Part shown: positions 12,987 through 45,666 of the stretch, piece after piece
Layout: every line of letters starts with the position of its first letter
How positions within the stretch are numbered: position 1 is the stretch's first letter
NCBI RefSeq assembly: GCF_936925435.1
Contig: NZ_CAKZHQ010000022.1
Span: forward strand, 124,001 to 188,000
Direction of reading: 5' to 3'
DNA length: 64,000 nt
Origin: an uncultured Ramlibacter sp.
GTDB taxonomy: Bacteria; Pseudomonadota; Gammaproteobacteria; Burkholderiales; Burkholderiaceae_C
Made by a program: the position numbers and the translations under genes
The notes under the pieces: generated by a model
What the model was told of the DNA's origin: nothing
The model's input: only the letters and a program-made list of their open reading frames with translations
Database searches by the model: none

Positions 12987-13805
12987 ATGCGCGCTGGCGC
13001 CGCCGCCGCACCCATCGGCAGCATCACGAGCGCCGATCGGCCGATCGGCGTGTTCGACAGCGGTGTCGGCGGCTTGAGCGTGCTCAGGGCGCTGCGCGCC
13101 GAATTACCGCAGGAAGACTTCGTCTACTTCGCCGACAGCGGCAACGCGCCGTATGGCGAGCGTGACGACGCCTTCGTGGCCCAGCGCTCGCAGGCCATTG
13201 CACAGCAACTGCGCGAAGAGCACGGCATCAAGGCCCTGGTCGTGGCCTGCAACACGGCGACAGCCGCAGCCGTGCACCTGCTGCGCGCCGGCCATCCCGG
13301 ACTGCCCCTGGTCGGCGTCGAGCCTGCGCTCAAGCCGGCGGCGGCACGCAGCCGCACCCGGCGCATCGCCGTGCTGGCCACGCGCGGCACGCTGGCCTCG
13401 GCCAAATTTGCAGCGTTGCATGCCTCGCTGCGCGATGAAGCAGAGTTCCTGCTCCAGCCCTGCGACGGCCTGGCCGCTGCCATCGAAGCCGACGACGCTA
13501 CAAAAATCAGAGCGCTCTGCGAAGAATACACGCGGGCTAGCGGCCGATTTGGCTCCAAAAATGGGCAAATCGACAGCCTGGTGCTCGGTTGCACCCACTA
13601 CCCCTTTGCCGCGAACCATTTCGCCGAATTGGCCGGACCGGAGGTGGCCTTGATCGAGACCGGCGAGCCGGTGGCGCGCCAGACCCGGCGCCTGCTGGGA
13701 GCCGCCGGCCTGCTGCGCACGCAAGGCGTGGGCAGCATCACGCTGCAGGCCAGCGCTGGGCAGGCAGCCCTGCACGCCACCGCCACGCGCTGGCTGGGCC
13801 GCTAG
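12987..13805 (+). CDS. murI: Glutamate racemase
   Basis: A 272-residue racemase making D-glutamate for peptidoglycan. The catalytic regions are clear: FDSGVGGLSVL at the N-terminus, VVACNTATAA with the first catalytic Cys, and LGCTHYPF with the second. The ATG lies 2 bases after the fumarase stop, so the two genes are probably cotranscribed. Odd point: the stretch just before LGCTHYPF (about residues 171-193, DATKIRALCEEYTRASGRFG) is encoded by a copy of an interspersed DNA repeat read in frame. Total length stays within the family range, so the enzyme is probably functional. The stop overlaps the convergent MFS gene by 4 bases. Confidence 0.95.
   Translation: MRAGAAAAPIGSITSADRPIGVFDSGVGGLSVLRALRAELPQEDFVYFADSGNAPYGERDDAFVAQRSQAIAQQLREEHGIKALVVACNTATAAAVHLLRAGHPGLPLVGVEPALKPAAARSRTRRIAVLATRGTLASAKFAALHASLRDEAEFLLQPCDGLAAAIEADDATKIRALCEEYTRASGRFGSKNGQIDSLVLGCTHYPFAANHFAELAGPEVALIETGEPVARQTRRLLGAAGLLRTQGVGSITLQASAGQAALHATATRWLGR
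13497..13564 (+). repeat. Interspersed repeat, copy 1 (inside murI)
   Basis: Counting from the G of GCTA as position 1, AGC occupies 15-17, GGGCTA 38-43 and GGCCGATTTGGC 46-57. The same spacing occurs at 25582-25642 (plus) and 45605-45666 (minus). Here the element is translated as part of MurI without a frame break. Confidence 0.75.
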
Positions 13806-15103
13806 GGGGCCTGCAAGGCCGCGGCGCGGCCGCGTGCCACGTCCACCTTCAGCAGCAGCACCAGGCCGACGAAGAACAGCACCGTGGTCGAGAGGATGGC
13901 GATGCGCTGGTTGCCGCCGGTCGCCCAGGCAATGGCGCCGTAGCTCAGGGGGCCGATCACGCTGGCCAGGCGGATGGCGAAGGTCCACAGGCCGAAGAAC
14001 TCGCCCAGCTGCCTGGGCGGCGCAAACAGACCGGCCATGGCACGGCCGGCCGACTGGCTGGAGCCCATGCACAGGCCGGCGATGGCGGCGGCCCACCAGA
14101 ACTGGCCCTTGCTGGTGCTGACAGCGGCGATCACGCAGGTGGCGATCCAGCCGACCAGGGTGCTGCCCAGGGCCAGCTTGTGGCCGATACGGTCCTGCAG
14201 GTAGCCCCAGGCGAAGGCGCCGCCGGCGGCCGCCAGGTTGAGCACGAAGATCAGCACCATGGTCTCCTGCGGCTCGAAGCCGATCACCTGCTCGGCGTAG
14301 ATGGCCGCCAGCGTGATCGCCACCGCCACGCCGCCCTGGTAGAACACCGCGCAGGCCAGCAGCCACATGAAGTCTCGGTAGCGCCGGGCCTGGCGGAAAG
14401 TCTGCTGCAACTGGCGCAGCGAGGCCTGCAGGCCGCTCTGCTGTGCGGCCGCGGGATTGGGCTGGGCACGCTCGCTCAGCAGCCAGAATGTCACCAGCGA
14501 GGCCGAGCCGTAGATGGCGGCCGTCAGCAGCACCGTCACCGGCACGAAGCTGCTGGCGGGAATGCCCTGTTTTTGCGCCCACAGCACGTAGCCAAGGCTG
14601 ATGCCCAGGGCCAGCATGCCGCCGAAGTAACCGAAGCCCCAACCCCAGCCGCTGACCTTGCCCAGCGACTCAGGCCGCGCCAGCTCCGGCAGGAAGGCCG
14701 CCGTCAGCGATTCGCCCCAGGCATAGAAGGTGTTGGACAAGATGATGAGCGCCACCGCCAACGCCACCGAGCCGGTGCCGGCCAGGGCCAGGGCCGCGGT
14801 GCTGAGCACGCATCCGGCCGTCACCATCATCAGCAGCTTCTTTTTGGCGGCGCGCAGGTCGGCCCAGGCGCCCAGGCTGGGCATGGTGAGCATGACGATG
14901 GCGTAGGAGGTGCTCAGAGCCGCCGTCCAGGCAAACGTGGCCCACTCGGCCTTTTGCGCGATCCCGCCGACGAAGTAGGCGGCGAACACGGCGGTGATGA
15001 TCACCGTGGTGTAGCCCGAGTTGGCGAAGTCGTACATCGCCCAGCCGAACACCTCGCGCCGGCGCACGCCGGGATTGAGAGCTTCCCTGGAAAAAAGGGC
15101 CAC
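13802..15103 (-). CDS. MFS transporter, UMF1/Atg22-like
   Basis: A 433-residue polytopic membrane protein. The N-terminal motif REVFGWAMYDFANSGYTTVI is the recognised opening of the UMF1 (Atg22-like) branch of the major facilitator superfamily. About twelve hydrophobic segments follow, with a loop pair of basic residues (RAAKKKLLMM) between helices 2 and 3. Substrates of this branch in bacteria are mostly undefined; yeast Atg22 exports amino acids from the vacuole. It is convergent with murI, with 4-bp overlapping ends. No operon partner is seen. Confidence 0.85.
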   Translation of the reverse strand: MALFSREALNPGVRRREVFGWAMYDFANSGYTTVIITAVFAAYFVGGIAQKAEWATFAWTAALSTSYAIVMLTMPSLGAWADLRAAKKKLLMMVTAGCVLSTAALALAGTGSVALAVALIILSNTFYAWGESLTAAFLPELARPESLGKVSGWGWGFGYFGGMLALGISLGYVLWAQKQGIPASSFVPVTVLLTAAIYGSASLVTFWLLSERAQPNPAAAQQSGLQASLRQLQQTFRQARRYRDFMWLLACAVFYQGGVAVAITLAAIYAEQVIGFEPQETMVLIFVLNLAAAGGAFAWGYLQDRIGHKLALGSTLVGWIATCVIAAVSTSKGQFWWAAAIAGLCMGSSQSAGRAMAGLFAPPRQLGEFFGLWTFAIRLASVIGPLSYGAIAWATGGNQRIAILSTTVLFFVGLVLLLKVDVARGRAAALQAP

Positions 15104-15160
15104 GCTGCGTCTCCTTGGTTGGAGCGCAGCATAGCCCAGGCCGGTGACGGCCCGGCCGGA

Positions 15161-15787
15161 TCAGTGCAGGTGGCGCGGGCGGCGTCCGCCGCCGTGGCCT
15201 CCGCCGGTCCCACCGCTGCCGCGCGGCGGGCGGCCGATCTCCAGCGAGTTGACCAGGGCGTCAAAGCGCTGGCTGAAGAGCTTGTCGATCTCGCCGACCA
15301 CGCCGCCCAATTCGGCGCCGTCGAAATGGCGCTCCATCAGGTTGACCACGTCCTCGACCAGCAGGTCGCGCTGCACCTGCATGATGGCCGCCGGATTGGG
15401 CCCGACGAACAGCATGATGAAGTCGTCGCGCGATTCGGCCTCGGGGCGCTCTTCTTCCTCGTCGAACTCGGCGTCGTAGAAGGTCACCTCGATCGCGGCG
15501 CCCTGATCGGCCAGTTCGTTCAGGCTCATGCACATTTCGTCGAGCGACTGGCGGAAGTCCTCGTCACCCGGCAGCGTCCAGCACATGGTCAGCAGGTGCT
15601 TGGCGGCGTCGAACTTCAGGCCCGACTCTTCCTCGTAGGTGCTTTCGGCGGCGTCGGCCAGCGATTTGGCGCCGGCGTACTTCCACAGCGGTTTGAGGGC
15701 CTCCTGCAGCTGGGCGAAGCTCACATCGGCGCGCAGAGGCACATCGCCGTGGACGTGGATTTCAAAAGGGGCGTTGTAGTTGGACAT
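15161..15787 (-). CDS. Conserved hypothetical acidic protein with Gly/Arg/His tail
   Basis: A 208-residue cytoplasmic protein with no recognised catalytic motif. The body is acidic (FDEEEERPEAESRDD) and looks like a compact alpha/beta domain (FEIHVHGDVPL at the start, FIMLFVGPNPAAIMQVQRD in the middle). The last 25 residues are low-complexity glycine, arginine and histidine. I think related proteins occur next to tRNA genes in other Burkholderiales, but I cannot check. It sits just downstream (in its own direction) of the tRNA-Leu/Cys/Gly cluster. No function is proposed. Confidence 0.8.
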   Translation of the reverse strand: MSNYNAPFEIHVHGDVPLRADVSFAQLQEALKPLWKYAGAKSLADAAESTYEEESGLKFDAAKHLLTMCWTLPGDEDFRQSLDEMCMSLNELADQGAAIEVTFYDAEFDEEEERPEAESRDDFIMLFVGPNPAAIMQVQRDLLVEDVVNLMERHFDGAELGGVVGEIDKLFSQRFDALVNSLEIGRPPRGSGGTGGGHGGGRRPRHLH

Positions 15788-15801
15788 GTTCGTACTCCGG
15801 C

Positions 15802-15893
15802 TGGTGCCTCGAGCCGGGCTTGAACCGGCACGCCCCCTTGCGGGTAGCGGCGGATTTTAAGTCCGCTGTGTCTACCAATTTCACCATCGAGGC
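15802..15893 (-). tRNA. tRNA-Leu(TAA)
   Basis: The minus strand folds as a class II tRNA: acceptor GCCTCGA paired to TCGAGGC, D-arm with TTGGTAGAC, anticodon stem GCGGA/TCCGC around loop CTTAAAA giving anticodon TAA, a long variable arm (CTACCCGCAAGGGGGCGT) and T-arm GGTTCAAGCC. The 3' CCA is encoded at 15802-15804. Confidence 0.96.
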
Positions 15894-15910
15894 TTCGAGC
15901 CCAATGTAAG

Positions 15911-15947
15911 ACAAAACAGCCCCGGCAACCTGGGTTGTCGGGGCTGT
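15911..15947 (-). terminator. U-tailed hairpin between tRNA-Cys and tRNA-Leu
   Basis: On the minus strand, ACAGCCCCG-A-CAACC pairs with GGTTG-C-CGGGGCTGT around a short loop, followed by TTTTGT. It looks like an intrinsic terminator 3' of tRNA-Cys, yet tRNA-Leu begins only about 20 bases later, so read-through or RNA processing is also possible. Confidence 0.7.
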
Positions 15948-15952
15948 ATGTC

Positions 15953-16026
15953 TGGAGGCGCGACCCAGAGTTGAACTGGGCTAGCCGGATTTGCAATCCG
16001 GTGCATAACCGCTTTGCTATCGCGCC
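15953..16026 (-). tRNA. tRNA-Cys(GCA)
   Basis: A 74-nt cloverleaf on the minus strand: acceptor GGCGCGA with TCGCGCC, D-loop AAGCGGTTATGC, anticodon stem CCGGA/TCCGG with loop TTGCAAA (anticodon GCA), T-arm CAGTTCAACTCTGG, and discriminator T followed by encoded CCA. Confidence 0.96.
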
Positions 16027-16050
16027 CGAATCCGTTCGCTGTTGCCGCAT

Positions 16051-16078
16051 GAAAAAGGGAAGCCGAAGCTTCCCTTTT
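16051..16078 (-). terminator. U-tailed UUCG-tetraloop hairpin between tRNA-Gly and tRNA-Cys
   Basis: An 11-bp stem AAAAGGGAAGC/GCTTCCCTTTT closed by C(TTCG)G on the minus strand, with the T-run continuing after the stem. A very stable intrinsic-terminator shape only about 25 bases before the tRNA-Cys 5' end. Confidence 0.7.
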
Positions 16079-16093
16079 ACCGGTTCTACCGGC

Positions 16094-16114
16094 AAAAGCA
16101 GCACTGCTGCTTTT
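16094..16114 (-). terminator. Second hairpin 3' of tRNA-Gly
   Basis: AAAAGCAGCA-G-TGCTGCTTTT on the minus strand, six bases after the tRNA-Gly CCA. The stem ends in TTTT, so it is a plausible terminator or a protective 3' structure. Confidence 0.6.
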
Positions 16115-16120
16115 GAAATA

Positions 16121-16196
16121 TGGAGCGGGAAAAGAGTCTCGAACTCTCGACCTCAACCTTGGCAAGGTTGCGCTCTACCAACTGAGCTATTCCCGC
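16121..16196 (-). tRNA. tRNA-Gly(GCC)
   Basis: A 76-nt cloverleaf on the minus strand: acceptor GCGGGAA with TTCCCGC, D-loop AGTTGGTAGAG, anticodon stem CAACC/GGTTG around TTGCCAA (anticodon GCC), T-arm GAGTTCGAGACTC, discriminator T and encoded CCA. Confidence 0.96.
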
Positions 16197-16210
16197 ATTT
16201 CGAGCCTCGA

Positions 16211-16240
16211 ATTATAGCGCAATTTTTTGGCTCTTTGCAA
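16211..16240 (-). promoter_or_regulatory. Sigma-70 promoter of tRNA-Gly
   Basis: On the minus strand, TTGCAA (16235-16240) and a perfect TATAAT (16211-16216) are separated by 18 bases. The expected transcription start is 6-8 bases before the tRNA 5' end at 16196. It lies between lon and the tRNA cluster. Confidence 0.75.
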
Positions 16241-16246
16241 CCATCC

Positions 16247-18667
<2,421 letters not shown>

Positions 18668-18692
18668 GGGAATCCTTGTTGTTACCAGTCGA

Positions 18693-18719
18693 ATATGGAC
18701 TGGAATAGGGCATTTTCAA
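18693..18719 (-). promoter_or_regulatory. Candidate sigma-32 (heat-shock) promoter of lon
   Basis: The minus strand carries TTGAAA (18714-18719), 13 bases, then GTCCATAT (18693-18700), resembling the sigma-32 pattern CTTGAAA-N11-16-CCCCATNT. It is about 25 bases before the lon ATG and after the clpX-lon hairpin. The -10 matches only in its second half. Confidence 0.45.
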
Positions 18720-18753
18720 CCCACCCGCGGTCCCCTGCGAGGCTGCGGGTGGG
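18720..18753 (-). terminator. Hairpin between clpX and lon
   Basis: CCCACCCGC pairs perfectly with GCGGGTGGG across a 16-base loop, then TTGAAAA follows on the minus strand. It is a weak intrinsic terminator or processing site; the U-rich tail is poor. Confidence 0.4.
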
Positions 18754-18809
18754 AAGACAAGCAAGATACCACCAGAGGGCAGATCTTCAGGCCCCGATAA
18801 CCGGCTGTT

Positions 18810-20075
<1,266 letters not shown>

Positions 20076-20197
20076 GTGCGCTGTGCCCTCAGAAGGTGTT
20101 TCTCAATGATACCCAAATAGCAAACGGCGCTTCCCCTGTTACAGGGAGCGCCGTTGCGGCTGTGCAACCCGGCGCCCGGCGGCGCCGGCGGCCGGCC

Positions 20198-20806
20198 TCA
20201 GGGACGCTTGGCGATGACCTGGTCGATCAGGCCGTAAGCCTTGGCCTCTTCGGCCTCCAAGAAGTAGTCGCGCTCGGTGTCGTTCTTGATCTTTTCCAGC
20301 GGCTGGCCGGTGCGCTCGGCCAGGATGCGGTTCATCTGGTCCTTGGTGCGCAGGATGTCGCGCGCATGGATCTCGATGTCGGTGGCTTGGCCGCGGGCGC
20401 CGCCCAGCACCTGGTGGATCATGATCTTGGAGTTGGGCAGCGAAAAGCGCTTGCCCTTCTCGCCGGCGGCCAGCAGGAAGGCGCCCATGCTGGCGGCGAA
20501 GCCGCAGCACAGGGTGGACACGGCCGGCTTGATGAAATTCATGGTGTCGAAGATCGCCATGCCGGCCGTGACGCTGCCGCCCGGCGAGTTGATGTAGAAC
20601 GAGATGTCCTTGTCCGGGTTCTCGCTCTCCAGGAACAGCAGCTGCGCCACGATCACGTTGGCGGTCTGGTCGTTGACCTCGCCGACCAAGAAGATCACCC
20701 GCTCCTTGAGCAGGCGCGAGTAGATGTCATAGGACCGCTCGCCGCGGCCCGACTGCTCGATGACCATCGGGATCATGCCGAGGTTCTGGGTCTCAAGTGC
20801 GCTCAT
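20198..20806 (-). CDS. clpP: ATP-dependent Clp protease proteolytic subunit
   Basis: A 202-residue serine peptidase that forms the tetradecameric barrel used by ClpX. The catalytic serine is in GFAASMGAF, the histidine in IMIHQVLGG, and the aspartate further on in the [14 protein letters not shown] region context. The propeptide-like start [33 protein letters not shown] is normal. GGAG precedes the ATG by about 9 bases. GQ at the active-site turn of E. coli ClpP is GF here, which I believe is common in this group. Confidence 0.98.
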
Positions 20807-20924
20807 GGAATGCTCCGTTTCGTTACGCCTACTGTATCCAAAAAGGATTTGGGGCCGGGATGGCCTTTGACAAGACCGTCCGGCCCCAGCGGGGACGCGG
20901 CCCTCAGGCCGCGTTGTCCTGCGT

Positions 20925-25553: not shown

Positions 25554-26729
25554 TCACTTGGCCGGAGCCGGGGTCGTGGTTGCTACCGTTTTGGTAGCAT
25601 CCGGACCAGGATTGGCAGGGGCTACAACCTGTTTTCCCTGGTAAATCGTGACTTTCTGGCCGGCCGAGAGCACATGAACGCCAGCGACCACCACCAGCTG
25701 GCCGGGCTGCAGGCCGGCGGCCACCACCGCCTCGTTGCCGTCTGCTGTGGCGATCTGGACGGGCTGCGACTTCAGCGTCATGCTGGCCTTGTCCAGCACC
25801 CAGACCGCGGTGGCCCCGCCTTCCTGGCGCAGGGCGCTGGTGGGCAGCTTGATGACCTGGGCGCCGGCGTGGCTGAACACCTGCGGCGCCACATAGACCG
25901 TCGCCCCCAGCGGCGGCGGCGCCGCGCCATCGAGGCCGACCTTGACCGCATAGGTGCGGGTGACGGGGTCGGCGCTGGCAGCGACTTCACGCACCTTGCC
26001 GCTAAGCGTGCGGTTCTCGGACCACAGGCGCACGCTGACCTCGGAGCCCGGCTTGATCGCCACCACCTTGTCTTCCGGCACGGCGAAGACCACGTCGCGC
26101 GGGCCGTCCTGGGCGATGCGCACCACCGGCGCGCCGGCGCTCACCACTTGGCCGGGCTCGGCCTCAATGGCCGTAACCACGCCCGAGACATCAGCCACCA
26201 GGCTGGTGTAGCGGGCCTGGTTGCCCTGTGAGGACAGCTGCGCCCTGGCTTGGTCGAATTGGGCCTGGGCCGACTTGAGCGTGGTCTCGCGGCGCTCCAG
26301 TTCGGCGCCGCTGATGAAGTTCTGGTTCTTCAACTGGGTGTAGCGCTTGAAGTCCGCCGCCGCCAGCTCGAGGTTGGTCGTCGCTGCGGTCAGCTGGGCC
26401 CGCGCCACTTCGGCGGCCAGCTGGTAGTCCTGCGGGTCCAGCTGGGCCAGCACCTCACCGGCCTTGACCCGCTGGCCCAGTTCGGCCTGGCGGCGGGTGA
26501 TCTTGCCGCCGACGCGAAAGCCCAGGCGCGACTCGACGCGTGGCCGCACCTCGGCGGCAAATTCGGTGGCGGACTGGAAGCCGCTGGTGCCCACGGTCAG
26601 CACCTTCACCGCCCGCACCGGCTCTTGCGCCGGCTCGGGCCGGGAACAGGCGGACAGGACCAGGGCGCTGGCGCTGGCGGCGGCCAGCAGGACAAGGCGT
26701 GCAAAGGAGGAAAGAGGCTGGGTGGGCAT
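25554..26729 (-). CDS. RND efflux periplasmic adaptor (membrane-fusion lipoprotein)
   Basis: A 391-residue AcrA-like adaptor. A lipoprotein signal ends LVLSAC-SRPEP, so the mature protein is lipid-anchored. The split lipoyl (biotinyl-like) domain is seen at GFRVGGKITRRQAELGQRVKAGEVLAQLD and its later half, and a helical hairpin rich in Ala/Gln lies between. The start is the ATG at 26729 (AGG about 9 bases upstream) rather than the in-frame codon at 26756. Odd point: the last 30 residues (from about QGKQVVAPANPGPD) are encoded by an interspersed DNA repeat, so the C-terminal tail is probably a late addition. Confidence 0.93.
   Translation of the reverse strand: MPTQPLSSFARLVLLAAASASALVLSACSRPEPAQEPVRAVKVLTVGTSGFQSATEFAAEVRPRVESRLGFRVGGKITRRQAELGQRVKAGEVLAQLDPQDYQLAAEVARAQLTAATTNLELAAADFKRYTQLKNQNFISGAELERRETTLKSAQAQFDQARAQLSSQGNQARYTSLVADVSGVVTAIEAEPGQVVSAGAPVVRIAQDGPRDVVFAVPEDKVVAIKPGSEVSVRLWSENRTLSGKVREVAASADPVTRTYAVKVGLDGAAPPPLGATVYVAPQVFSHAGAQVIKLPTSALRQEGGATAVWVLDKASMTLKSQPVQIATADGNEAVVAAGLQPGQLVVVAGVHVLSAGQKVTIYQGKQVVAPANPGPDATKTVATTTPAPAK
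25582..25642 (+). repeat. Interspersed repeat, copy 2 (3' end of adaptor gene)
   Basis: Same layout as the murI copy: GCTA at 1-4, AGCATCCGG at 15-23, GGGGCTACA at 37-45 and TTT at 52-54. AGCATCCGG and GGGGCTACA are identical to the copy at 45605-45666. The left part is also a dyad, GCTACC-GTTTT-GGTAGC. Confidence 0.75.
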
Positions 26730-28996: not shown

Positions 28997-30034
28997 GTGT
29001 TCAAACTTGGTCTCGCTTTTCTATTCGCTACTGTGCTGACTGCATGTGGCGGGTCTTCCTCGTCTTCTCAAGCTCAGCCCGCTCATTCCCAGTTTGCCTC
29101 TACCGTAGAAACGGCAGACGACGAAAATCTGCGGTTACCCATGGCTGAGACTCCTGTTCTTGAAGGGCACAGCGGTTCGGCGTACCGGATGTATCAGGCG
29201 GCCTTCGACAGAGCGCCTGATTCCGCAGGCCTCAATTACTACATTGAAAAGCTGTCTACACGTCAGATGACGCTTAAAAGTATGGCTATTGGTTTCTACA
29301 ACAGCCCGGAATTCAAGTCGCGTTACGGGGATGTAGGACCCCAAACCTTTATCGACTTGCTTTACCGCAACGTTCTAGGTCGGGACGGTGAAACTGCCGG
29401 GCGGTTCTTTCACATGTCCAACATTGCGAACGGTCGAACTGATGTGTATGACACGTTAGTCTCGTTTTCAGAGTCACCCGAGAACATCGCGCGCGTGTCC
29501 GCTAGCCTCGGAACAGGCACAGCACCTGGCACCGGAACATTGGCCACATGTCCCGTTGCTACCGACTCAAAGATGGCGCGGCCGTATTCGAACTGGCTGT
29601 TCGTTCAATCGGACAAAGCTCTCCAGGTTCGTTACGGAATTTTGAAAGAGTATTCCGACGGAACGGCGGACGTCTGTCTACAGTATCAAGTGAACAAGGC
29701 CGATTCTATTCACTGCACTTCAGCAAGCTGCGATGGCTACATCCTTGAAACGAACGTCCTTGAAGTCCCCTCCAACTCATCTCGGCACTATTGGTTTACG
29801 CGGGCTTTCGATGGACCATACACCGAGACCTTTCTAAAGCGAAGACTGAAGTTCAGCGATGGCTCTGAACTGCGATGGGATCAGAGCAAGGGAATAGTCT
29901 TGTTAGAGAGCGGCGTCGCCACTGGAGGGGTTTGGTCAACGCTCTGCGTTGACAACAAGCTCACATCGGGCTCTACTCGGTGCACATACTACCGTCCTGA
30001 CATGTCCAAAACAGTCTCCATCAACGGTAGTTGA
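28997..30034 (+). CDS. DUF4214-domain lipoprotein, low G+C
   Basis: A 345-residue predicted lipoprotein. From the GTG at 28997 (AAGGGG about 6 bases upstream) the protein starts with FKLGLAFLFATVLTAC-GGSSSSS, a textbook lipobox; an earlier in-frame GTG at 28928 would add 23 residues and spoil the signal. Residues about 60-165 are a DUF4214 domain: YRMYQAAFDRAPDSAGLNYY, YNSPEFKSRYGD, FIDLLYRNVLGRDGE and FSESPENI. The C-terminal half has paired cysteines (CTSASCDG, LCVDN, RCTYY) and no recognised domain. Codon use and G+C (about half, by eye) differ strongly from all neighbours, pointing to horizontal acquisition. Confidence 0.8.
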   Translation: MFKLGLAFLFATVLTACGGSSSSSQAQPAHSQFASTVETADDENLRLPMAETPVLEGHSGSAYRMYQAAFDRAPDSAGLNYYIEKLSTRQMTLKSMAIGFYNSPEFKSRYGDVGPQTFIDLLYRNVLGRDGETAGRFFHMSNIANGRTDVYDTLVSFSESPENIARVSASLGTGTAPGTGTLATCPVATDSKMARPYSNWLFVQSDKALQVRYGILKEYSDGTADVCLQYQVNKADSIHCTSASCDGYILETNVLEVPSNSSRHYWFTRAFDGPYTETFLKRRLKFSDGSELRWDQSKGIVLLESGVATGGVWSTLCVDNKLTSGSTRCTYYRPDMSKTVSINGS

Positions 30035-30680
30035 ACCTGGCACTGTCTGCTCCAACTGCAACGGCCGCAAGGCTAGCTGGCGCACCGAGTAGGCCAGCAT
30101 GCCGCCGTAGTATCGACCCTGCATATTCCCAGGTGCCTTGACGGCTTCCTGCCGGAAGACCGCCGGATCGGCGCCAGTTCGGTGGAGCAGCAACGCATGA
30201 AAGTGTATATGCGGCTGTCGGGCTAGCAATGCGGAAAGACGCAGGCTTTCCGCAAACAAATGTTCCAACCCGCTAGAGCGGACAGGTGAACTCAAACGTT
30301 ATAGACGGCACCATGAAATCTGTGGAGGCACTCGCAGTGATAAGAACCCTCTGCGGGCTGTACTACTTCGCACCCGGCATGTCGGCAGGAAGACACCTCC
30401 GAGATCGGGAGCGTGCGGGCGGGCTGCGGGACGCCATTCGACGGGTGCCGGGGAAATCTGCCTGGCCGTGTCGGCGAGCGCAACGCACTCCGTGCACTGA
30501 CTTGCGGCAGCAAGCCTAAACGGAACGGCCTCATGGCGCGAAGTGAGTTCTGCCGCCCGACAGGCCAGGCGGATTTCTCCGGGAAGCGTATGCGGGGCGA
30601 AGCGAACATGCGCCGCCCGTTGTGCACCACGCGGCCCGCCCGCACGCGGCTGGGGCGCTCAGCGGAGGGCTTTGACAAGC
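30035..30680. other. 646-bp region without a recognisable gene
   Basis: Lies between the DUF4214 lipoprotein and the HAD gene. It holds a minus-strand open frame (29936-30295) whose peptide LARQPHIHFHALLLHRTG looks protein-like but matches no family I know, a GCGGAAAG/CTTTCCGC dyad near 30232-30254, and the long inverted repeat described separately. It is best read as decayed mobile or gene-remnant DNA. Confidence 0.45.
30448..30583. repeat. Long imperfect inverted repeat (hairpin element)
   Basis: CCGGGGAAATCTGCCTGGCC (30448-30467) is mirrored by GGCCAGGCGGATTTCTCCGG (30563-30582) with two mismatches, and the similarity continues inward (AACGCACTCCGTGCAC against the complement of CGCGAAGTGAGTT). 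The whole 136-bp unit could fold into one cruciform, like a MITE or REP-derived element. Confidence 0.55.
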
Positions 30681-31408: not shown

Positions 31409-32437
31409 ATGCCTTCCCCATCCCCTGCTACCGCCGTGGTCCTGTGCAACCTGGGAACGCCGGATGCGCCCACGGCACCGGCCGTGCGCCGCTACCTGGC
31501 GCAGTTCCTGTCCGATCCGCGCGTGGTCGAGATCCCGCGCGCCGTCTGGCTGCCCATCCTGTACGGCGCCGTGCTGACCACCCGGCCGGCGAAGTCGGCC
31601 GCCAAATATGCCAGCATCTGGTTGCCCGAAGGCTCGCCGCTGAAGGTCTGGACCGAGCGCCAGGCCGCCGCCTTGCAGGAAGCCCTGGGGCCCGAGGTCA
31701 CGGTGCGCGCCGCCATGCGCTACGGCGAGCCCGCCCTGGCCTCGGTGCTGGACGCGCTGCGCGCCCAGGGCGCGGACCGCATCCTTGTGCTGCCGGCCTA
31801 TCCGCAGTACAGCGGAACGACCACGGCCAGCGTCTGGGACGCGCTGGCGCAATGGGCAGGCGCGCAGCGCAATCTGCCCGCGCTGCGCTTCGTGCGCGGC
31901 TACCACGACGACGCCGGCTACATAGGCGCTCTTGCCGCCACTGTGCGCGCCCACTGGCAGCGTAACGGCCGCGGCGGCCACCTGGTCATGAGCTTCCATG
32001 GCGTGCCGCAGCGCACCGTGGACCAGGGCGACTCCTACGCCGATGAGTGCCGCGAGACTGCCCGCCTGCTGGCCGCGGCCTTGCAACTGCAAGAAGGCAG
32101 CTGGAGCCTGAGCTTCCAGTCGCGCTTTGGCAAGGCCAAATGGCTGGAGCCAGCCACCGAGCCCAGCCTGGTGGCTCTGGCGTGTGCCGGCACGGCGCGG
32201 GTCGATGTGATGTGCCCGGGCTTTACCAGCGACTGCCTGGAGACCCTGGAAGAGATCGACCAGGAGGGACGCGCCGCCTTCATGGCCGCCGGCGGCAGCA
32301 CGTTCCACTACATCCCCTGCCTGAATGCCGACGCCGCATGGACAGCAGCCCTGGCCGGCCTGGCCCGCAGGCAGCTTGCCGGCTGGCTCCCGCAATCACA
32401 GGAAAATCAGGCCGCGGCTCCCGGCTCCTGGACCTGA
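31409..32437 (+). CDS. hemH: Ferrochelatase
   Basis: A 342-residue enzyme inserting Fe2+ into protoporphyrin IX, the last step of heme synthesis. Family landmarks: VVLCNLGTPDAPTAPAVRRYL at the N-terminus, ILVLPAYPQYSGTTTAS, the metal-site histidine in VMSFHGVPQRT, and the C-terminal MCPGFTSDCLETLEEI with the acidic residues. AGGGGAG lies 8 bases before the ATG. It is divergent from the HAD gene with only 17 bp between starts, so the promoters must overlap the coding ends. Confidence 0.96.
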   Translation: MPSPSPATAVVLCNLGTPDAPTAPAVRRYLAQFLSDPRVVEIPRAVWLPILYGAVLTTRPAKSAAKYASIWLPEGSPLKVWTERQAAALQEALGPEVTVRAAMRYGEPALASVLDALRAQGADRILVLPAYPQYSGTTTASVWDALAQWAGAQRNLPALRFVRGYHDDAGYIGALAATVRAHWQRNGRGGHLVMSFHGVPQRTVDQGDSYADECRETARLLAAALQLQEGSWSLSFQSRFGKAKWLEPATEPSLVALACAGTARVDVMCPGFTSDCLETLEEIDQEGRAAFMAAGGSTFHYIPCLNADAAWTAALAGLARRQLAGWLPQSQENQAAAPGSWT

Positions 32438-32440
32438 GGC

Positions 32441-32457
32441 GCTATTGATTCGATAGC
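32441..32457. repeat. Left-half palindrome of the interspersed repeat
   Basis: GCTATTGATTCGATAGC sits 3 bp after the hemH stop and contains the TAG stop of the convergent hydrolase gene. It has the same 17-base form (GCTA at 1, AGC at 15) as the left part of the full repeats, but no GGGCTA follows. Confidence 0.6.
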
Positions 32458-33335
32458 GCAGCGGCTTCGCATGCAGCCTCGATGAAGGCCGTGACCGGGT
32501 CCAGCTGCGAGGCCACGTTGAGCGCCGGTGCATGGCCGCAGCCGGGCACCTCGATCAGTTCGGCCAGGCCGCGCGCGCCCGGCCCGCGGCGCAGCATCTC
32601 CTGCGCTGTCTCGGGCAGCACCAGGTCCGACTCGGCGCCGCGCAGGCACAGCACCGGGATCTCCAGCGCGTCGTAGTGCTCCCACAGCGCGTAGTCGTCG
32701 GGATGGTCGATGAACTGGCGCACCATCGCCGGGTCGTAGTGCGGCGTGACGCGGCCATCGGCCAGGCGGCGCGCCGAGCTCTCGGTCAGGCGCCGCCACT
32801 GCGCGTCGCTCAGCCAGCCATAGGGCCGGTAGACCTGGCGAAAGAAGGCTTCCAGTTCGGCGATGGTGGCAAACGACGGCGGACTGCCCGCATAAGCCTT
32901 GATGCGCTCGACTGCCGGCGCCGCCAGCTGCGGCGCGTTGTCGTTGAGGACCAGGCTGTGGATGCGGCCCTTGAGCTGGGGCTGCATCAGGCCGGCGGCA
33001 CAGACCGTGCCGATGGCCCCGCCCATGGAGGTGCCGATCCAGTGCACGGCGTCGAGCTGCAGCTGCTCGAACAGGCCGGCAGCGATGCGCGCATAGAACT
33101 CCAGCTGGTACTCGCCGCCCGGGTCGGCCGCCCACTGGCTCAGGCCTCGGCCGATGGTGTCGGGACAGATCACCCGCCAGCCGCGCCCGGCCAGGTGGGC
33201 CGCCAGTTCGTCCATGTCGCGGCCGGTGCGCGCCAGGCCATGCCAGGCCAGCACCGTGCGGCCATGCTGCGCGCCCCACTGCGTGTAGTGGATCTCGCGC
33301 CCCGCGCATGTCACGTAGTTCGAGCTGTAGTCCAT
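32442..33335 (-). CDS. Alpha/beta-fold hydrolase
   Basis: A 297-residue serine hydrolase. The oxyanion region is LAWHGLARTG, the nucleophile elbow is WIGTSMGGAIG, and the catalytic His is near VPGCGHAPALN. The cap region is rich in aromatic residues. It begins 11 bp after the livM-type gene and closes the operon livK-livG-livF-livH-livM-hydrolase, so it may cleave an ester, lactone or ring-fission product of the imported compound; this is inference. The start at 33335 excludes a long upstream shadow frame antisense to nothing but overlapping livM. Confidence 0.87.
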   Translation of the reverse strand: MDYSSNYVTCAGREIHYTQWGAQHGRTVLAWHGLARTGRDMDELAAHLAGRGWRVICPDTIGRGLSQWAADPGGEYQLEFYARIAAGLFEQLQLDAVHWIGTSMGGAIGTVCAAGLMQPQLKGRIHSLVLNDNAPQLAAPAVERIKAYAGSPPSFATIAELEAFFRQVYRPYGWLSDAQWRRLTESSARRLADGRVTPHYDPAMVRQFIDHPDDYALWEHYDALEIPVLCLRGAESDLVLPETAQEMLRRGPGARGLAELIEVPGCGHAPALNVASQLDPVTAFIEAACEAAALSNQ

Positions 33336-38255: not shown

Positions 38256-38298
38256 GGGGACTGTCTCCTGTTATTGGTGCAAGAACTCGCACCAACAA

Positions 38299-38314: not shown

Positions 38315-38392
38315 GCGTCTAAGTCCTTGATTTATATGACGGCGAACCGGCGTCAACGCCAATTTGCCTGACAATCAGACAGATTTGAGTGT

Positions 38393-39889
<1,497 letters not shown>

Positions 39890-39919
39890 GGGCCCATCCT
39901 AGCCTGAGATCCGGCGCGC

Positions 39920-41416
39920 TTAGACCTGGCGCTGAGCGCGCAGCCGCATCAGCCGCGGCACGGCCAGGACGGCCAGCACCACAAGGAGCAGCACCAGCGA
40001 CATCGGCCGCTGCACGAAGATCAGGAAGCTGCCCTCGCCAATGGACACGGCGTTGCGCATCTGGGCTTCCGCAAGAGGGCCCAGGATCATGCCCACCACC
40101 ACCGGGGCGGTGGGAAAGTCAAAGCGTCGCATCACCACGCCCAGCAGGCCGATGCCATACAGCAGCACCAGATCGAAGGCGCTCTGGCGCATGCCATAGG
40201 CGCCAACGGTGGCAAAGATCAGGATGCCGGCATACAGCTGCGGCTTGGGGATCTTCAGCAGCTTGACCCAGAGCTTGATCATCGGCAGGTTCAGCACCAG
40301 CAGCATCACGTTGCCGATGTAGAGCGAGGCGATCAGCGCCCACACCAGGGCGGCCGAGGTGGTGAACAGCTGGGGCCCTGGCTGGATGCCGTAGTTCTGG
40401 AAAGCGCCCAGCAGGATGGCCGTGGTGTTGGAGGTGGGGATGCCCAGGGTCAGCAGCGGGATCAGCGCCGCCGTCACCGAGGCGTTGTTGGCCGCCTCGG
40501 GGCCGGCCACGCCCTCGATCGCGCCCTTGCTGCCGAACTCCGCCAGGTTCTCGCCCTTGGCCAGCTTCTTTTCCGTCGCGTAGCTCAGAAAGGTAGGGAT
40601 CTCGGTGCCGCCGGCCGGGATGCAGCCGAAGGGCACGCCAATGGCCGTGCCGCGCAGCCAGGCGGGGATGGAGCGGCGCCATTCCTTGCCCGTCATGTAG
40701 ACCTTGCTCATGGCGTTCTGGGTCTCGTCGCTGCGGCCCTCGTACATGGCGGCGTACAACACCTCGGCAACGGCGAACAGGCCGACCGCCACCAGCACGA
40801 TCACGATTCCCTCGAGCAGATCGGGCACGCCCAAGGTGTAGCGTCCCTGGCCCCAGATCTGGTCCAGGCCGAAGCAACCGATGGCCAGGCCCAGCAGCAG
40901 CGCCGTCATGCCGCGCAAGGTGCTCTTGCCCAGCACCGCGCTGACCGTGGTGAAGGCCAGCACCATGAGCATGAAGTACTCGGGCGGTCCCAGCTTGACG
41001 GCGAACTCCGCGACAAAGGGCGCGAACAGGGTGACGATGACGGTGGCGATGGTGCCGGCCACGAAGGAGCCGATGGCCGCCGTGGCCAGGGCCGCGCCGG
41101 CGCGGCCGCTCTTGGCCATCTTGTTGCCCTCCATGGCCGTGACCATGCTGGCGGTTTCGCCCGGCGTGTTCAACAGGATGGAGGTGGTCGAACCGCCATA
41201 CATCGCGCCGTAGTAGATGCCCGAGAAAAAGATCATCGAGGCCGTGATGTCGACCTTGCCCGTGATGGGCAGCAGCATGGCCACGGCCACGGCCGGACCG
41301 ATGCCGGGCAGCACGCCGACGGCCGTGCCCAGGGCGCAGCCGACAAAAGCCCAGACCAGGTTGACCGGCGAGATCGCCGTGGCGAAGCCCTGCAGCAGTG
41401 CGTTGAGGATTTCCAT
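39920..41416 (-). CDS. tctA: Tripartite tricarboxylate transporter, large membrane subunit TctA
   Basis: A 498-residue polytopic protein. The duplicated family signature is visible as [17 protein letters not shown] and [16 protein letters not shown]...[19 protein letters not shown]. It forms the carrier for citrate-like substrates, driven by Na+ or H+, with TctB and the periplasmic TctC. The start is taken at ATG 41416, whose first base is shared with the tctB TGA (TGATG); an ATG three codons upstream is also possible. It is last in tctC-tctB-tctA. Confidence 0.95.
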
Positions 41417-41925
41417 CACAGCCATCCCGTCGAAGTCAGGCCCGGCAGGTTGATGGCCAGGAACTGCGTGAACATCCAGAACACCGGGGCCGAGATGATG
41501 GCGCCGGTGGCCGCATCCACCACCCAGGTGCTGGCTGCGATGGACTGGCCGCTGGCGCGGCGCAGGCCCTGCACCGCCAGCAGGTAGCACAGCGTGCAGC
41601 TGAGGATGAAGCCGATGCTGGTGATCAGCGCCGCATTGGCCAGCAGGCCGGCCGAGACCCAGACCAGGCCGGCCCAGTTGGCGCGCGCAGCGCCCGTGGG
41701 CTCCTCCATCGCGCGAAAGCCGCCGGTGCGCGCCTCGCGGATGATGAGCGCGCCGCACAGCGCCAGAGAGACCGCCACCAGCCAGGGCAGGAAGTTGGGC
41801 CCGACGCCGCCGTAGCCGGCCGCCGAGGGGATGGAGACCGCGCCGGCCGCCAGGGCCAGGCCCAGCAGCAGCACGCCGGCGCCAACGGCGGTCTGTACCG
41901 CGCTTGCAGGGCTTGCTTGTGTCAT
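41416..41925 (-). CDS. tctB: Tripartite tricarboxylate transporter, small membrane subunit TctB
   Basis: A 169-residue protein with four predicted membrane helices and little motif content, as usual for TctB. It starts at ATG 41925 ([21 protein letters not shown]) and is translationally coupled to tctA. The upstream frame extension runs over the tctC 3' end and terminator and is not used. Assignment rests mostly on position between tctC and tctA plus hydropathy. Confidence 0.9.
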
Positions 41926-41947
41926 GTTTGATCTTTCGCAATGCACG

Positions 41948-41972
41948 AAAAAACGCCCGGCAGGCCGGGCGT
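41948..41972 (-). terminator. Intrinsic terminator/attenuator between tctC and tctB
   Basis: ACGCCCGG-CCTG-CCGGGCGT on the minus strand, followed by TTTTTTC, 21 bases after the tctC stop. It is a strong intrinsic terminator shape inside the operon, which would make the binding protein more abundant than the membrane subunits. Confidence 0.8.
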
Positions 41973-41993
41973 CGCGTCTGGCATGGACGCCGC

Positions 41994-42947
41994 TCAGACC
42001 ATGCCGGACTTGACCATGGTGGCGCGCAGGCTGGCGAATTCGTCGTCGACGAACTTGTCGAAGGCCGGGCCGGACAGCACGGCCGGCGTCCAGTCGTTCT
42101 TGGCCAGCGACTCCTGCCAGGACTTGGTCTTGAGGGCCGCCAGCACCATGTCGGTCAGGGCCTTGCGCTGCGCCTCGTTGATACCGGAGGCGCCGTAGAC
42201 GCCGCGCCAGTTGCCGATCTCGATGTTCAGGCCCTGCTCCTTGAGCGTGGGCACGCCCTTGAGGCGCTGGGCCGAGGTGACGGCGATGGCCTTCATCTTG
42301 CCTGCCGTGATGTACTCGGCGAACTCGCTGTAGCCGCTGCCACCCACGGTGACGTTGCCGCCCAGGATGGCGGCCGTGGCTTCGCCGCCGCCACGGAAGG
42401 CGACATAGTTGATCCTGGACGGGTCGACGCCCACTTCGCGGGCGATCATGGCGGCGGCGATGTGCTCGGTCGATCCGCGCGAACCGCCGCCCCACTTGAC
42501 GCTGCCCGGGTCCTTCTTGAGCTGGGCGATCACGTCGGCCATGGTCTTGAACGGCGAATTGGCCGGCAGCACGAAGACGTTGTACTCGCTGGTGATGCGG
42601 GCGATCGGCGTGGCCTGCGACAGGTTGACCGGCGGCTTGCCGGTGATGATGCCGCCGAGCATGACGGCGCCCATCACCATCATGGCGTTCGGATCGCCCT
42701 TGCTGCCGTTGACGAACTGGGCCAGGCCCAGCGCGCCGGCGGCGCCGCCCTTGTTGTCGAAGCTGACGTTGTCGGCGACCTTGGCTTCCAGCAGGGCCTT
42801 GCCCAGGGCGCGGCCCGTGCTGTCCCAGCCGCCGCCGGGATTGGCCGGAATCATCATCTTGACGCTGGCGGCAGCCTGGGCCGACAACGGCAGTGCGCCA
42901 GCGGCGGCCAGTGCGGCCATGGATTTGAGGAAGGTGTCGCGACGCAT
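41994..42947 (-). CDS. tctC: Tripartite tricarboxylate transporter, binding protein TctC (Bug family)
   Basis: A 317-residue periplasmic protein. The start is ATG 42947 with AGGAG 8 bases upstream, giving the signal [25 protein letters not shown]. The mature region has the Bug-type ligand loop [21 protein letters not shown] and the later [18 protein letters not shown]. It is divergent from the tctDE genes, 139 bp apart, so the shared intergenic region probably holds TctD sites; I saw no clear repeat there. Citrate, tricarballylate or a related acid is expected. Confidence 0.94.
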
Positions 42948-43086
42948 GGGCTGTCTCCTGGAAATACTTGTTGGAAGGTGAACGGCCAAATCATGCGCCC
43001 GCTGCCTGTCAAACGGCTGTCCAGGGCATTGGGGAAACTACTACATTCGGCGGGCCCCGCGGCATCCGCTAACCTCGCATCCATTG

Positions 43087-43764
43087 ATGAAACTCCTGCT
43101 GGTCGAAGACGATCCCTCCATGCGCGCCACCCTGGAGCGCGCGCTGTCGCGGCGCGGCATGCAGGTGAGCAGCTGCGGCGACGGCCTACAGGCCCTGGCC
43201 CAATGGAAGGACAGCGCGCCCGATGCCCTGGTGCTGGACCTGAGCCTGCCCGGCCTGGACGGCTTGCAGGTGCTGGAGCAGGGACGCCGCGCCGGCCTGC
43301 ACACGCCGGTGCTGATCCTCACGGCCCGCGGCACCGTGGGTGATCGCGTGATGGGCCTCAACAGCGGCGCGGACGATTACCTGCCCAAGCCCTTTGACCT
43401 GGACGAACTGGAGGCGCGGCTGCGCGCGCTGCTGCGCCGCGGTCCCGCGTCCGGTGCCGAACCGGCCTCCAGCCCTTTGCAAATGGGCGCGCTGCGCTAT
43501 GAAAAAGAGAGCGGTGCGGTCTACCACCGGGACCAGGTGCTGGAGCTGACGCCGCGTGAGGCCGCCCTGCTGCAAGCCCTGATGGCGCGGCCGGCGCACG
43601 CCGTCTCCAAGGAGAAACTGTTCGAGCTGGTCTTTCCCGGCGAGGCCGACGTGCAGTACGAGGCGGTGGAAGTGGTGGTCTACCGCCTGCGCAAGAAGCT
43701 GGCCCACACCGGCGTCACCCTGATGACGCTGCGCGGCCTGGGCTACCTGCTGAAGGAGGAATGA
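43087..43764 (+). CDS. tctD: Response regulator TctD (OmpR/PhoB type)
   Basis: A 225-residue two-component regulator. The receiver has the acidic pair EDD near the start, phospho-acceptor Asp in LVLDLSLPG, Thr in ILTARG and Lys in YLPKPFDLDEL. The C-terminal winged helix (LTPREAALLQALM, YRLRKKL, LRGLGYLLKEE) is of the OmpR class. The start is ATG 43087; a TTG directly before it is ignored. Its stop overlaps the kinase start as ATGA. Divergence from tctCBA and pairing with a TctE-like kinase support control of tricarboxylate uptake. Confidence 0.94.
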   Translation: MKLLLVEDDPSMRATLERALSRRGMQVSSCGDGLQALAQWKDSAPDALVLDLSLPGLDGLQVLEQGRRAGLHTPVLILTARGTVGDRVMGLNSGADDYLPKPFDLDELEARLRALLRRGPASGAEPASSPLQMGALRYEKESGAVYHRDQVLELTPREAALLQALMARPAHAVSKEKLFELVFPGEADVQYEAVEVVVYRLRKKLAHTGVTLMTLRGLGYLLKEE

Positions 43765-45182
43765 GCGTGCGGGCGCTTTCGCTCAGACGGTATTTGCTGG
43801 TCGGCATCCTGGTGCCGGTGGTGCTGCTCATCACCCTCAACAGCGTGAGCCTGTACACCCAGGCGCTGGCGGCGGTGAACACGGCCTACGACCGCACCCT
43901 GCTGGCTTCGGCCAAGGTGATCGGCGAGCAGCTCGATGTCGAGGGTTATGACGAGCTCTCGCTGCTGCGTGCCACCGTGCCCTACTCCGCGCTGGAAGCC
44001 TTCGAGGCCGACAACAGCAGCCGCATGTTCTACCGCGTCTCCAGCCTCAAGGGCGAGATGGTCTCGGGCTTCGCAGAATTGCCGTTCTGGCGCGGCACCC
44101 TGCCGCAGCGCCCGCCCTATGCCGCCCTGGTGGACTTCTACGACGACAGCTTCCGCGGCGCCGAGGTCCGGGTGGCGGTGATGCTGCAGCCGGTGGCCAG
44201 CCCCACCGGACGCGCCATGGCCGTGGTCCAGGTGGCCGAGACCCTGGAGCTGCGCCGCACCCTGGCCCGGCAGATCCTGGTCGACACCATCTGGCGCCAG
44301 GCCGTGCTGGTGGCGGTGATCGCCCTGGTGGTGGTGGTCGTGGTGCAACGGGCCACGCGGCCGGTGCGCCGGCTGTCGGGCGAGCTGCAAGAGCGGCGCG
44401 AGGGCGACCTCACGCCGATTGCCGCACCGGACGCCCCCCGCGAACTGCTGCCCCTGGTGGACGCCACCAACCAGGTGATGGCGCGGCTGGACCAGTTGCT
44501 GGACAACCAGAAGCGCTTCGTGCGCGACACCGCCCACCAGCTGCGCACGCCGCTGGCCGTGCTCAAGACCCAGGTGCAGTCGGCCCTGCGCGGCGACGCC
44601 CCGCCTTTGCAGGCGCTGCAGGAGATCAACGCCACGGTCGAACGCGCCACCGTGCTGGCCAACCAGATGCTGTCGCTGGCCAAGGTGGAACAGCTGCGCC
44701 AGCAGCCCGATGCGGCGGTCAACGACCTGTCGGCCCTGGTGCGCGCCATGGCGCTGGAGCTGTCGCCGCTGATCGCCGAGAAGGACCTGGACTTCGAGAT
44801 CAGCACCCACAGCGCACCGGTGATGGCGCACGAATGGATGCTGCGCGAGCTCTCGCGCAATCTGCTGCACAACGCCATCCGCCACAGCCCGGTGGGCGGC
44901 GGCCTGGCTGTGCAGGTGGTCAGCGACGCGCATGCTGTCGCCCTGACCGTGGCCGACGCCGGGCCCGGCATCACGCAGGCCCTGCGCGGCCGCCTGTTCC
45001 AGCCGTTTTCGGCCGGCGACCTGCACCACGGCTCCGGCCTGGGCCTGGCCATCTGCCAGGAGATCGTGCAGGCGCTGGGCGGCAGCATCGCCCTTGAAAA
45101 CCGCGAGCGCCATGGCCAGGTGCAGGGACTCGACGCCACGGTGCGCCTGCCGCGCGCCCAACCGGCGGACAATGGGCACTGA
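43761..45182 (+). CDS. tctE: Sensor histidine kinase TctE
   Basis: A 473-residue membrane kinase. Helix 1 (YLLVGILVPVVLLITL) and helix 2 (AVLVAVIALVVVVVV) bracket a periplasmic sensor of about 140 residues with the LLASAKVIGEQL start of the 2CSK_N family. HAMP-like linker, then the H box FVRDTAHQLRTPLAVLK, N box ELSRNLLHNAIRHSP, G boxes VADAGPGI and GSGLGLAICQEI. All catalytic boxes are intact. It is coupled to tctD and ends one base before hslR. Confidence 0.94.
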   Translation: MSVRALSLRRYLLVGILVPVVLLITLNSVSLYTQALAAVNTAYDRTLLASAKVIGEQLDVEGYDELSLLRATVPYSALEAFEADNSSRMFYRVSSLKGEMVSGFAELPFWRGTLPQRPPYAALVDFYDDSFRGAEVRVAVMLQPVASPTGRAMAVVQVAETLELRRTLARQILVDTIWRQAVLVAVIALVVVVVVQRATRPVRRLSGELQERREGDLTPIAAPDAPRELLPLVDATNQVMARLDQLLDNQKRFVRDTAHQLRTPLAVLKTQVQSALRGDAPPLQALQEINATVERATVLANQMLSLAKVEQLRQQPDAAVNDLSALVRAMALELSPLIAEKDLDFEISTHSAPVMAHEWMLRELSRNLLHNAIRHSPVGGGLAVQVVSDAHAVALTVADAGPGITQALRGRLFQPFSAGDLHHGSGLGLAICQEIVQALGGSIALENRERHGQVQGLDATVRLPRAQPADNGH

Positions 45183-45183
45183 C

Positions 45184-45597
45184 ATGGACAAGTTACGCAT
45201 CGACAAGTGGCTCTGGGCCGCGCGCTTTTACAAGACGCGCAGCCTGGCCAGCGAGGAAATCACGAAAGGCCGGGTCGAGGTCAATGGCCTGGAGGCCAAG
45301 CCCTCCCGCGAGGTGAAAGTGGGTGACACGGTGCAGCTGCGGCGCGAGGCCGTGGTCCGCACCGTGGTGGTCAAGGGCCTGTCGGCCACGCGCGGCGCGG
45401 CGCAGGTGGCCCAGCAGCTGTACGAGGAAACGCCCGACAGCCTGCGCGCGCGCGAGCAGGCTGCAGAGCAACGCCGCTTGGCGCCCGAGCCGGCGCTGGC
45501 CATCGAACACGGCCGCCCCACCAAGCGCGGCCGGCGCGAACTGGACCAGGCCCAGGGCGGCTGGGGCGACCGCTGGAGCGCCTCGGCCGACGAATAG
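45184..45597 (+). CDS. hslR: Heat shock protein 15 (S4-domain ribosome-associated RNA-binding protein)
   Basis: A 137-residue protein with an N-terminal S4 RNA-binding fold: MDKLRIDKWLWAARFYKTRS, then GRVEVNGLEAKPSREVKVGD. The C-terminal tail is basic (PTKRGRRELDQAQGGW). Hsp15 homologues bind stalled 50S subunits with peptidyl-tRNA. The ATG at 45184 lies just past the tctE stop; an in-frame ATG at 45172 would overlap tctE and is less likely. Confidence 0.93.
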   Translation: MDKLRIDKWLWAARFYKTRSLASEEITKGRVEVNGLEAKPSREVKVGDTVQLRREAVVRTVVVKGLSATRGAAQVAQQLYEETPDSLRAREQAAEQRRLAPEPALAIEHGRPTKRGRRELDQAQGGWGDRWSASADE

Positions 45598-45604
45598 CCC
45601 ACGT

Positions 45605-45666
45605 TGCAGGCCAAAGCGGCCTGTAGCCCCCGGGATAGGGACCCCGGATGCTCCTGATTCCATAGC
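45605..45666 (-). repeat. Interspersed repeat, copy 3 (intergenic)
   Basis: Read on the minus strand from 45666: GCTA (1-4), AGCATCCGG (15-23), GGGGCTACA (37-45), GGCCGCTTTGGC (46-57). The last block differs from the murI copy by one base, and the first two match the adaptor-gene copy exactly. It sits between hslR and the TAXI gene. Confidence 0.75.

Follow-up and report, generated by a model that had tools for sequence, protein, structure and literature searches.

The well-established DNA uptake signals are those of the Neisseriaceae and the Pasteurellaceae (PMC4212676). According to the accessible parts of the published reports, which serve as the source for all papers cited here, the DNA uptake sequences (DUS) of the Neisseriaceae form dialects with an invariant core and occur in 943 to 3603 copies (PMC3630211), and the uptake sequences of the Pasteurellaceae are biased to gene termini (PMC2346458). 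Transformation of Verminephrobacter eiseniae, a member of the Comamonadaceae, required type IV pilus genes and dropped only about tenfold when salmon-sperm DNA was in large excess; Acidovorax temperans was stated, as 'not shown', to be transformed solely by DNA of its own species (PMC4212676). Here we describe a motif of about 64 bp, found in a 64,000-nucleotide stretch of the genome of an uncultured Ramlibacter sp. (NZ_CAKZHQ010000022.1, positions 124,001 to 188,000; called the window below). We propose, with a probability of roughly 0.43, that this motif serves as a recognition signal in double-stranded DNA, most likely of the DNA-uptake type, which is maintained in place.

Parts of this motif seem to have been seen before. 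The accessible part of a 2017 report lists word pairs as 'potential novel motifs', among them ATAGCT(N)22CAAAAG of Polaromonas naphthalenivorans, with 125 copies of which 101 are intergenic, 18 genic and 6 overlapping, and GCTTAT(N)5AAGCG of Acidovorax ebreus (114 copies; 44 convergent and 4 divergent), and names Rhodoferax ferrireducens as the genome with the largest number of motif pairs (PMC5217627). These word pairs aside, the openly available literature that we searched gave no description of the whole family or of a Comamonadaceae uptake signal.

Pattern, dialects and range of the motif

An earlier note on this DNA had proposed, from three sites, a family of repeats that was not due to chance and was folded and possibly mobilised, with similar elements scattered in Comamonadaceae genomes. 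The three sites, at 13497 (+), 25582 (+) and 45666 (-), indeed share one map, with GCTA at 1-4, AGC at 15-17, GGGCTA at 38-43 and TTT at 52-54. The words reported as shared were also found, AGCATCCGG and GGGGCTACA in sites 2 and 3, and GGCCG-TTTGGC in sites 1 and 3. When the whole genome was searched with AGC-N20-GGGCTA-N5-C-NN-TTT-N-GC allowing up to 2 mismatches, 48+53 places were found, against 12+3 with the reversed control; a second count, with the core pattern, gave 73+85 against 1+1. With the spacing off by one (21 N, slightly other letters, up to 3 mismatches), only 1+1 places were found, against 2+1 in the control.

Thirty copies found by the pattern could be aligned without gaps across 76 columns. 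GCT at columns 8-10 lies outside the search pattern, and there C9 and T10 were invariant and G8 was present in 29 of the 30 copies. A sequence-only model trained on these 30 copies, R1, gave E <= 2.4e-7 for all 150 candidates examined in this genome (of 1632 first-look candidates), a set that includes its training copies. The window holds six R1 copies (E <= 8.7e-8), of which three were new; a weight matrix found the same six, and none in shuffled or reversed windows. All six are single, not tandem. The 193-kb contig has 15 copies by the matrix, which extrapolates to about 350 per genome. A strand skew along the chromosome, suggested by a subset of the matches, was not borne out by the totals, which were balanced (151/168 and 84/83). 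Further copies keeping the spacing, on which the earlier note had made its claim depend, were thus present, and the motif is strongly over-represented and spread genome-wide in both orientations. Rfam at its gathering score gave no match to the motif; its only matches in the window were five tRNAs.

Dialect matrices were built for 12 genomes, with each copy left out when it was scored and congeners counted as one dialect. Each of the 12 genomes yielded its own consensus. Ten dialects share GCTA (8-11), TAGC (21-24), G32, GGGCT (45-49), G53, C55 and TTT (59-61), together with A/T at columns 15-17, while the divergence between them is concentrated in columns 25-46. The information per dialect was 44-74 bits, a value inflated by the score threshold used in building the matrices. 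A conserved core and species dialects are therefore both present. Helical phasing of the A/T positions was not significant when pooled (p 0.089); two of the ten dialects gave uncorrected values below 0.01 at 10-11 bp.

The taxonomic family of the host was represented by 299 genomes, of which 81 had 10 or more core-pattern matches, up to 368 in G095, and the reversed control never exceeded 4. Presence was patchy within genera. The exact-pattern matches listed include Rhodoferax (a member of the Comamonadaceae), Polaromonas, Acidovorax, Giesbergeria, Curvibacter, Comamonas and others, which bears out the scatter mentioned in the earlier note. In other families of the order the pattern was at or near control. 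R1 found nothing in 24 genomes of the same genus and 16 of the same order, for the genus partly a dialect effect; zero counts with the pattern of one dialect do not prove absence, because the relative G049 carries another spelling. A left-arm pattern gave 2-29 sites in eight genomes against 32-82 in controls, and G050, with 29 such sites, may hold remnants of the motif. Only one contig matching the exact pattern was found among 2.9 million viral contigs. That contig (L437, IMGVR_UViG_3300045825_000357) has two copies about 500 bp apart, at 5676-5728 and 6220-6272, and is perhaps a prophage or a host fragment. Another case apart is the carrier G102, with 160 pattern matches, which is listed as 100% complete; MurI was not matched there and ComEC only weakly, possibly owing to an assembly gap.

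Copies kept in place

The six copies of the window and their contexts are as follows.

13490..13565, plus strand: copy 1 (site 1; GCT from 13497), R1 51.8 bits, E 3.3e-15; within murI (glutamate racemase, 13080-13805, plus), sense; PF01177 and glutamate racemase models score below or near cut-off for this gene.
25575..25650, plus strand: copy 2 (site 2; GCT from 25582), R1 36.3 bits, E 2.2e-10; within the last codons of a resistance-nodulation-division (RND) efflux adaptor-like gene (25554-26729, minus; TIGR01730), antisense.
32389..32464, minus strand: copy 3 (new; R1 match 32396-32462), R1 28.0 bits, E 8.7e-8; at the 3' ends of convergent ferrochelatase (31409-32437, plus) and alpha/beta hydrolase (32442-33335, minus) genes.
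43444..43519, minus strand: copy 4 (new; R1 match 43447-43513), R1 33.4 bits, E 1.8e-9; within an OmpR-type response regulator gene (43087-43764, plus), antisense.
45598..45673, minus strand: copy 5 (site 3; GCT from 45666), R1 53.3 bits, E 1.1e-15; intergenic, between an S4-domain gene (45184-45597, plus) and a TAXI/NMT1-like binding-protein gene (45772-46725, plus).
60392..60467, minus strand: copy 6 (new; R1 match 60411-60461), R1 47.9 bits, E 5.3e-14; next to a DUF349 gene that faces it (60474-63290, minus) and reaching into a peptidase M90 gene (59668-60420, plus), whose 3' end it overlaps.

The murI copy recurs widely. In carriers of other genera, 21 of 27 had at least 12 of 19 core positions at the same codons, all with offset zero (3 of 30 carriers were left out for lack of a MurI match). 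Among 28 genomes of the same genus, with this genome (G000) and G049 excluded, the core was present in one (L233, from G004). MurI homologues free of the motif match the MurI of the window in protein pattern and, roughly, in length, so that copy 1 is not a motif-length insertion.

The gene comEC was chosen as a second place because motif matches fell inside comEC matches. The core stood at the same place with offset zero in 13 of 15 carriers and within 15 bp in 14, the exceptions being G095 (shifted 15 bp) and G216 (absent); it was found in none of six other genomes, two of which were classed as non-carriers by zero pattern counts alone. The comEC copy best fitted the dialect of its own genome in 10 of 11 genomes, over all columns and in the variable middle alike, and the murI copy did so in 6 of 12 (all columns) and 4 of 12 (middle). 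Spelling at one fixed coding position thus agrees with the dialect of the genome as a whole, clearly in comEC but only in part in murI. The recurrent comEC copy (L438, G000:C4:229800-232400) sits in the gene of the DNA-uptake channel itself, possibly by coincidence.

The syntenic relative G049 is 74-88% identical in aligned blocks and has copies at the place and strand of window copies 1, 2 and 4. Their spelling differs from that of the window, and the 29 copies that G049 carries in 360 kb have a consensus of their own. On the 193-kb contig, 5 of 15 copies have an aligned G049 flank. Three of these also occur in G049, where the length differs by 0, 8 and 0 bp; the two that do not are copy 5 and a copy lying just beyond the edge of the window. 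G049 lacks about 100 bp including the motif at the site of copy 5, and no motif was apparent at the place of copy 3 in G049 or G050. In G050, which is without the family, murI has the same length, while the response regulator gene has 6 nt fewer and the adaptor gene with copy 2 about 24 nt fewer.

Copies were also compared within close pairs after non-syntenic ones had been dropped (3 of 17 in G131, 1 of 15 in G314 and 10 of 19 in G130). G131 and G314 are 91.5% identical, and a same-strand partner was found for 13 of 14 syntenic G131 copies and, in the reverse direction, for 12 of 14; one of the two G314 copies left without a partner had been paired with a G131 copy in the first direction. For 9 syntenic copies of G130 compared with G313, the partner scored above 40 in six, 21.1 in one and below 3 in two.

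With respect to genes, 81 of 82 copies were classified with the gene finder of this analysis, one copy at a locus edge being dropped. Thirty-nine were intergenic (13 convergent, 3 divergent, 20 co-directional and 3 at an edge), 26 overlapped a gene at its 3' end, 3 overlapped one at its 5' end and 13 were internal to genes. For comparison, 5000 places drawn at random on the 193-kb contig fell inside genes in 85.4% of cases, between them in 7.3%, at 3' ends in 3.7% and at 5' ends in 3.6%. A gene ended exactly in the motif in 14 of 76 matrix-found copies, its stop codon being supplied in 8 sense cases by TAG at columns 21-23 and in 6 antisense cases by columns 48-50 read as reverse complement. 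Orientation was balanced inside genes (6 sense, 7 antisense), at 3' ends (14/12) and in co-directional gaps (9/11), which counts against a strand-specific RNA role. One copy (L027/L306, G000:C48:74537-74603) overlaps a gene 5' end and, on visual reading, would code for a portion of an N-terminus resembling a signal peptide. Elsewhere in the window, two adjacent peptidylprolyl isomerase genes (57762-58349 and 58370-58879) yield long direct repeats, likely by tandem gene duplication.

Structure was tested by covariation and by folding. The inner pairs of the left stem were seen in 37, 23, 20 and 26 of the 82 copies, where independent columns predict 36.8, 33.5, 20.9 and 25.0. An all-pairs scan of 2850 column pairs gave a best z of 3.8, and the best z over three data sets of about 2800 pairs each was 3.8, 3.2 and 4.1, with no top pair in a stem; RNAalifold gave four pairs with negligible covariation. 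Median folding z-scores ranged from -1.45 to +0.16 across dialects (for this genome, 40 of 80 copies were used), most near shuffled sequence; in G131, G314 and G158 one strand or both gave lower values (median z -1.1 to -1.5), and in G131 and G314 a strong inverted repeat lies at the centre of the motif, with modest z-scores for folding. A folded RNA or DNA element was therefore rejected for want of stem covariation and of more than a little excess fold stability, and with it a stem-loop of the repetitive extragenic palindromic (REP) type under structural constraint. The earlier note's reading thus held for the family, its spacing and its scatter, while neither its folded unit nor, as is described below, its possible mobilisation was supported.

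What could maintain the motif

The copies stay in place, change their spelling together within a species, occur in both orientations, show no fold and are tolerated in conserved genes, which together point to a double-stranded recognition motif. We suggest that it would be a recognition signal spanning columns 8-71, or about 64 bp, at hundreds of places per genome, with its shape kept in place, its core common to the taxonomic family and its middle part specific to the species. A protein would read it, and this reader may be a receptor of the transformation machinery that prefers DNA with the version of its own species. Fragments with a good copy would then recombine more often at the homologous place, so that drive rather than ordinary selection would bring the copies to the taste of the receptor. 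If the receptor changed, the copies would shift together to a new dialect, and if the preference were lost, they would decay.

Uptake is preferred over a chromosome-binding protein because the core, the dialects, the gene-end bias and the patchy range match the dialects of uptake sequences, and because transformation in the Comamonadaceae has been reported to be sequence-selective. The near absence of the motif from viral contigs was also counted for uptake.

Several observations weigh against the uptake reading. The motif is far longer and has fewer copies (hundreds) than DUS, that is, about 64 bp and an extrapolated 350 or so copies instead of a motif of about 10-12 bp in some 1000 or more copies. 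Only 13 of the 81 classified copies lie inside genes, and the fit of the murI copy to its own dialect is weak. ComEC passed the cut-off in 41 of the 42 carriers, the exception being the weak match of G102, and also in 25 of 27 zero-count genomes, and so does not discriminate. Some intergenic copies differ between relatives, and the origin of new copies was not observed in the compared genomes.

The strongest rival, which we regard as unlikely, is a binding site of a chromosome-organising or nucleoid protein, the sites being kept by selection while protein and sites change together. Such a protein would explain the place conservation, the dialects, the double-strandedness and both orientations as well as uptake does. 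The bits that a motif needs depend on the number of its sites, however, and 44-74 bits are far beyond the need of hundreds of sites. The organiser would also have to be dispensable, since whole genomes and genera of the family lack the motif, and it gives no obvious reason for the recurrent copies in murI and comEC.

An old mobile repeat, similar to REP elements or to miniature inverted-repeat transposable elements (MITE), which a transposase would have scattered in the distant past and which would since be in decay or be preserved by gene conversion, is improbable. It would account for hundreds of short, partly palindromic and mainly extragenic copies, for the patchy presence across genera and for copies found in one relative and not in another. 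A Y1-type (PF01797) gene is present as well, mostly one per genome with an open frame of 211-291 aa in most. That gene was found, however, in carriers (12/12) and non-carriers (8/8) alike among 20 genomes searched; in this genome no motif copy lies within 1.5 kb of it (L409, G000:C5 around 29900-30229), and 2 of 12 Y1-gene loci checked had a nearby copy, both in dense carriers. Copies of this genome have a mean identity of 63% and no pair above 84% (80 copies, 57 columns), giving no sign of recent multiplication, and across ten dialects the mean was 51-68% and the maximum 0.88, with no near-identical pair. No precise insertion of motif length was found in murI, the response regulator or comEC against motif-free homologues; copies lie in these coding sequences without insertion, and carry dialects at fixed coding sites. 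Copy 2 is less clear and is the weakest case against a mobile repeat, as G050 is shorter there. Four unshared or doubtful sites of the close pair showed no clean insertion either, and the gain and loss seen between species occurs in intergenic DNA without one. With many copies syntenic in relatives, these results do not favour the mobilisation that the earlier note had considered.

A bidirectional transcription terminator or mRNA 3'-end element is very improbable: the excess of copies at gene 3' ends (26 of 81, against 3.7% of random places) and between convergent genes (13, against 3 between divergent ones) and the inverted repeat of G131 and G314 would suit it, but there is no covariation, folding is little above shuffles in most dialects, neither the 30-copy alignment nor folding shows the stem and T-run of a Rho-independent terminator, and conserved copies lie inside murI, comEC and the response regulator gene.

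Returning to the uptake signal, it would fit the published and unexplained sequence-selective transformation in Verminephrobacter and Acidovorax temperans. That selectivity was published without a cause, and the motif is a candidate handle on it. Tentatively, and short of an even chance, much of one bacterial family may label its DNA by an uptake signal some 64 bp long. The spelling of that signal would be particular to each species and would shift jointly at hundreds of fixed sites, conserved genes such as comEC included; this would be a separately evolved system of new architecture, and a species barrier written in the genome. Whatever protein reads the motif, concerted spelling differences at hundreds of orthologous sites offer a natural trace, of a kind seldom available, of how a DNA-recognition system and its targets evolve together.

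Comparison with known systems

REP elements and bacterial interspersed mosaic elements (BIME), which are associated with REP-associated tyrosine transposases (RAYT), are short and partly palindromic and occur in hundreds of copies at gene 3' ends. The motif is like them in all these respects. It differs in that no structural constraint and no link to a Y1 gene were found, and in its orthologous in-gene copies with dialects.

The Beta-proteobacterial repeat element (BRE) is, in the part of its report used here, about 90 bp long, often tandem and present in 1-29 copies per genome (PMC3110155). Like the motif, it is dispersed in Betaproteobacteria, including Polaromonas and Delftia, with some copies in coding sequences; the motif appears to differ from BRE, as described, in length, tandem form and copy number (PMC3110155).

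The word pairs of 2017 are most probably pieces of this motif family, judging by their letters and contexts. They agree in sequence with stretches of the motif as spelled in related dialects, and they are mainly intergenic, many between convergent genes. They were given, in the accessible part of that report, as word pairs in single genomes, without the family range, the dialects, the in-gene conservation or a function (PMC5217627).

Compared with DUS and other uptake sequences as their accessible reports describe them, the motif is longer (about 64 bp, against about 10-12), has hundreds of copies instead of about a thousand or more, and is mostly extragenic. Like them, it is spread genome-wide in both orientations, in and between genes, with a core and dialects, a patchy range and a bias to gene termini.

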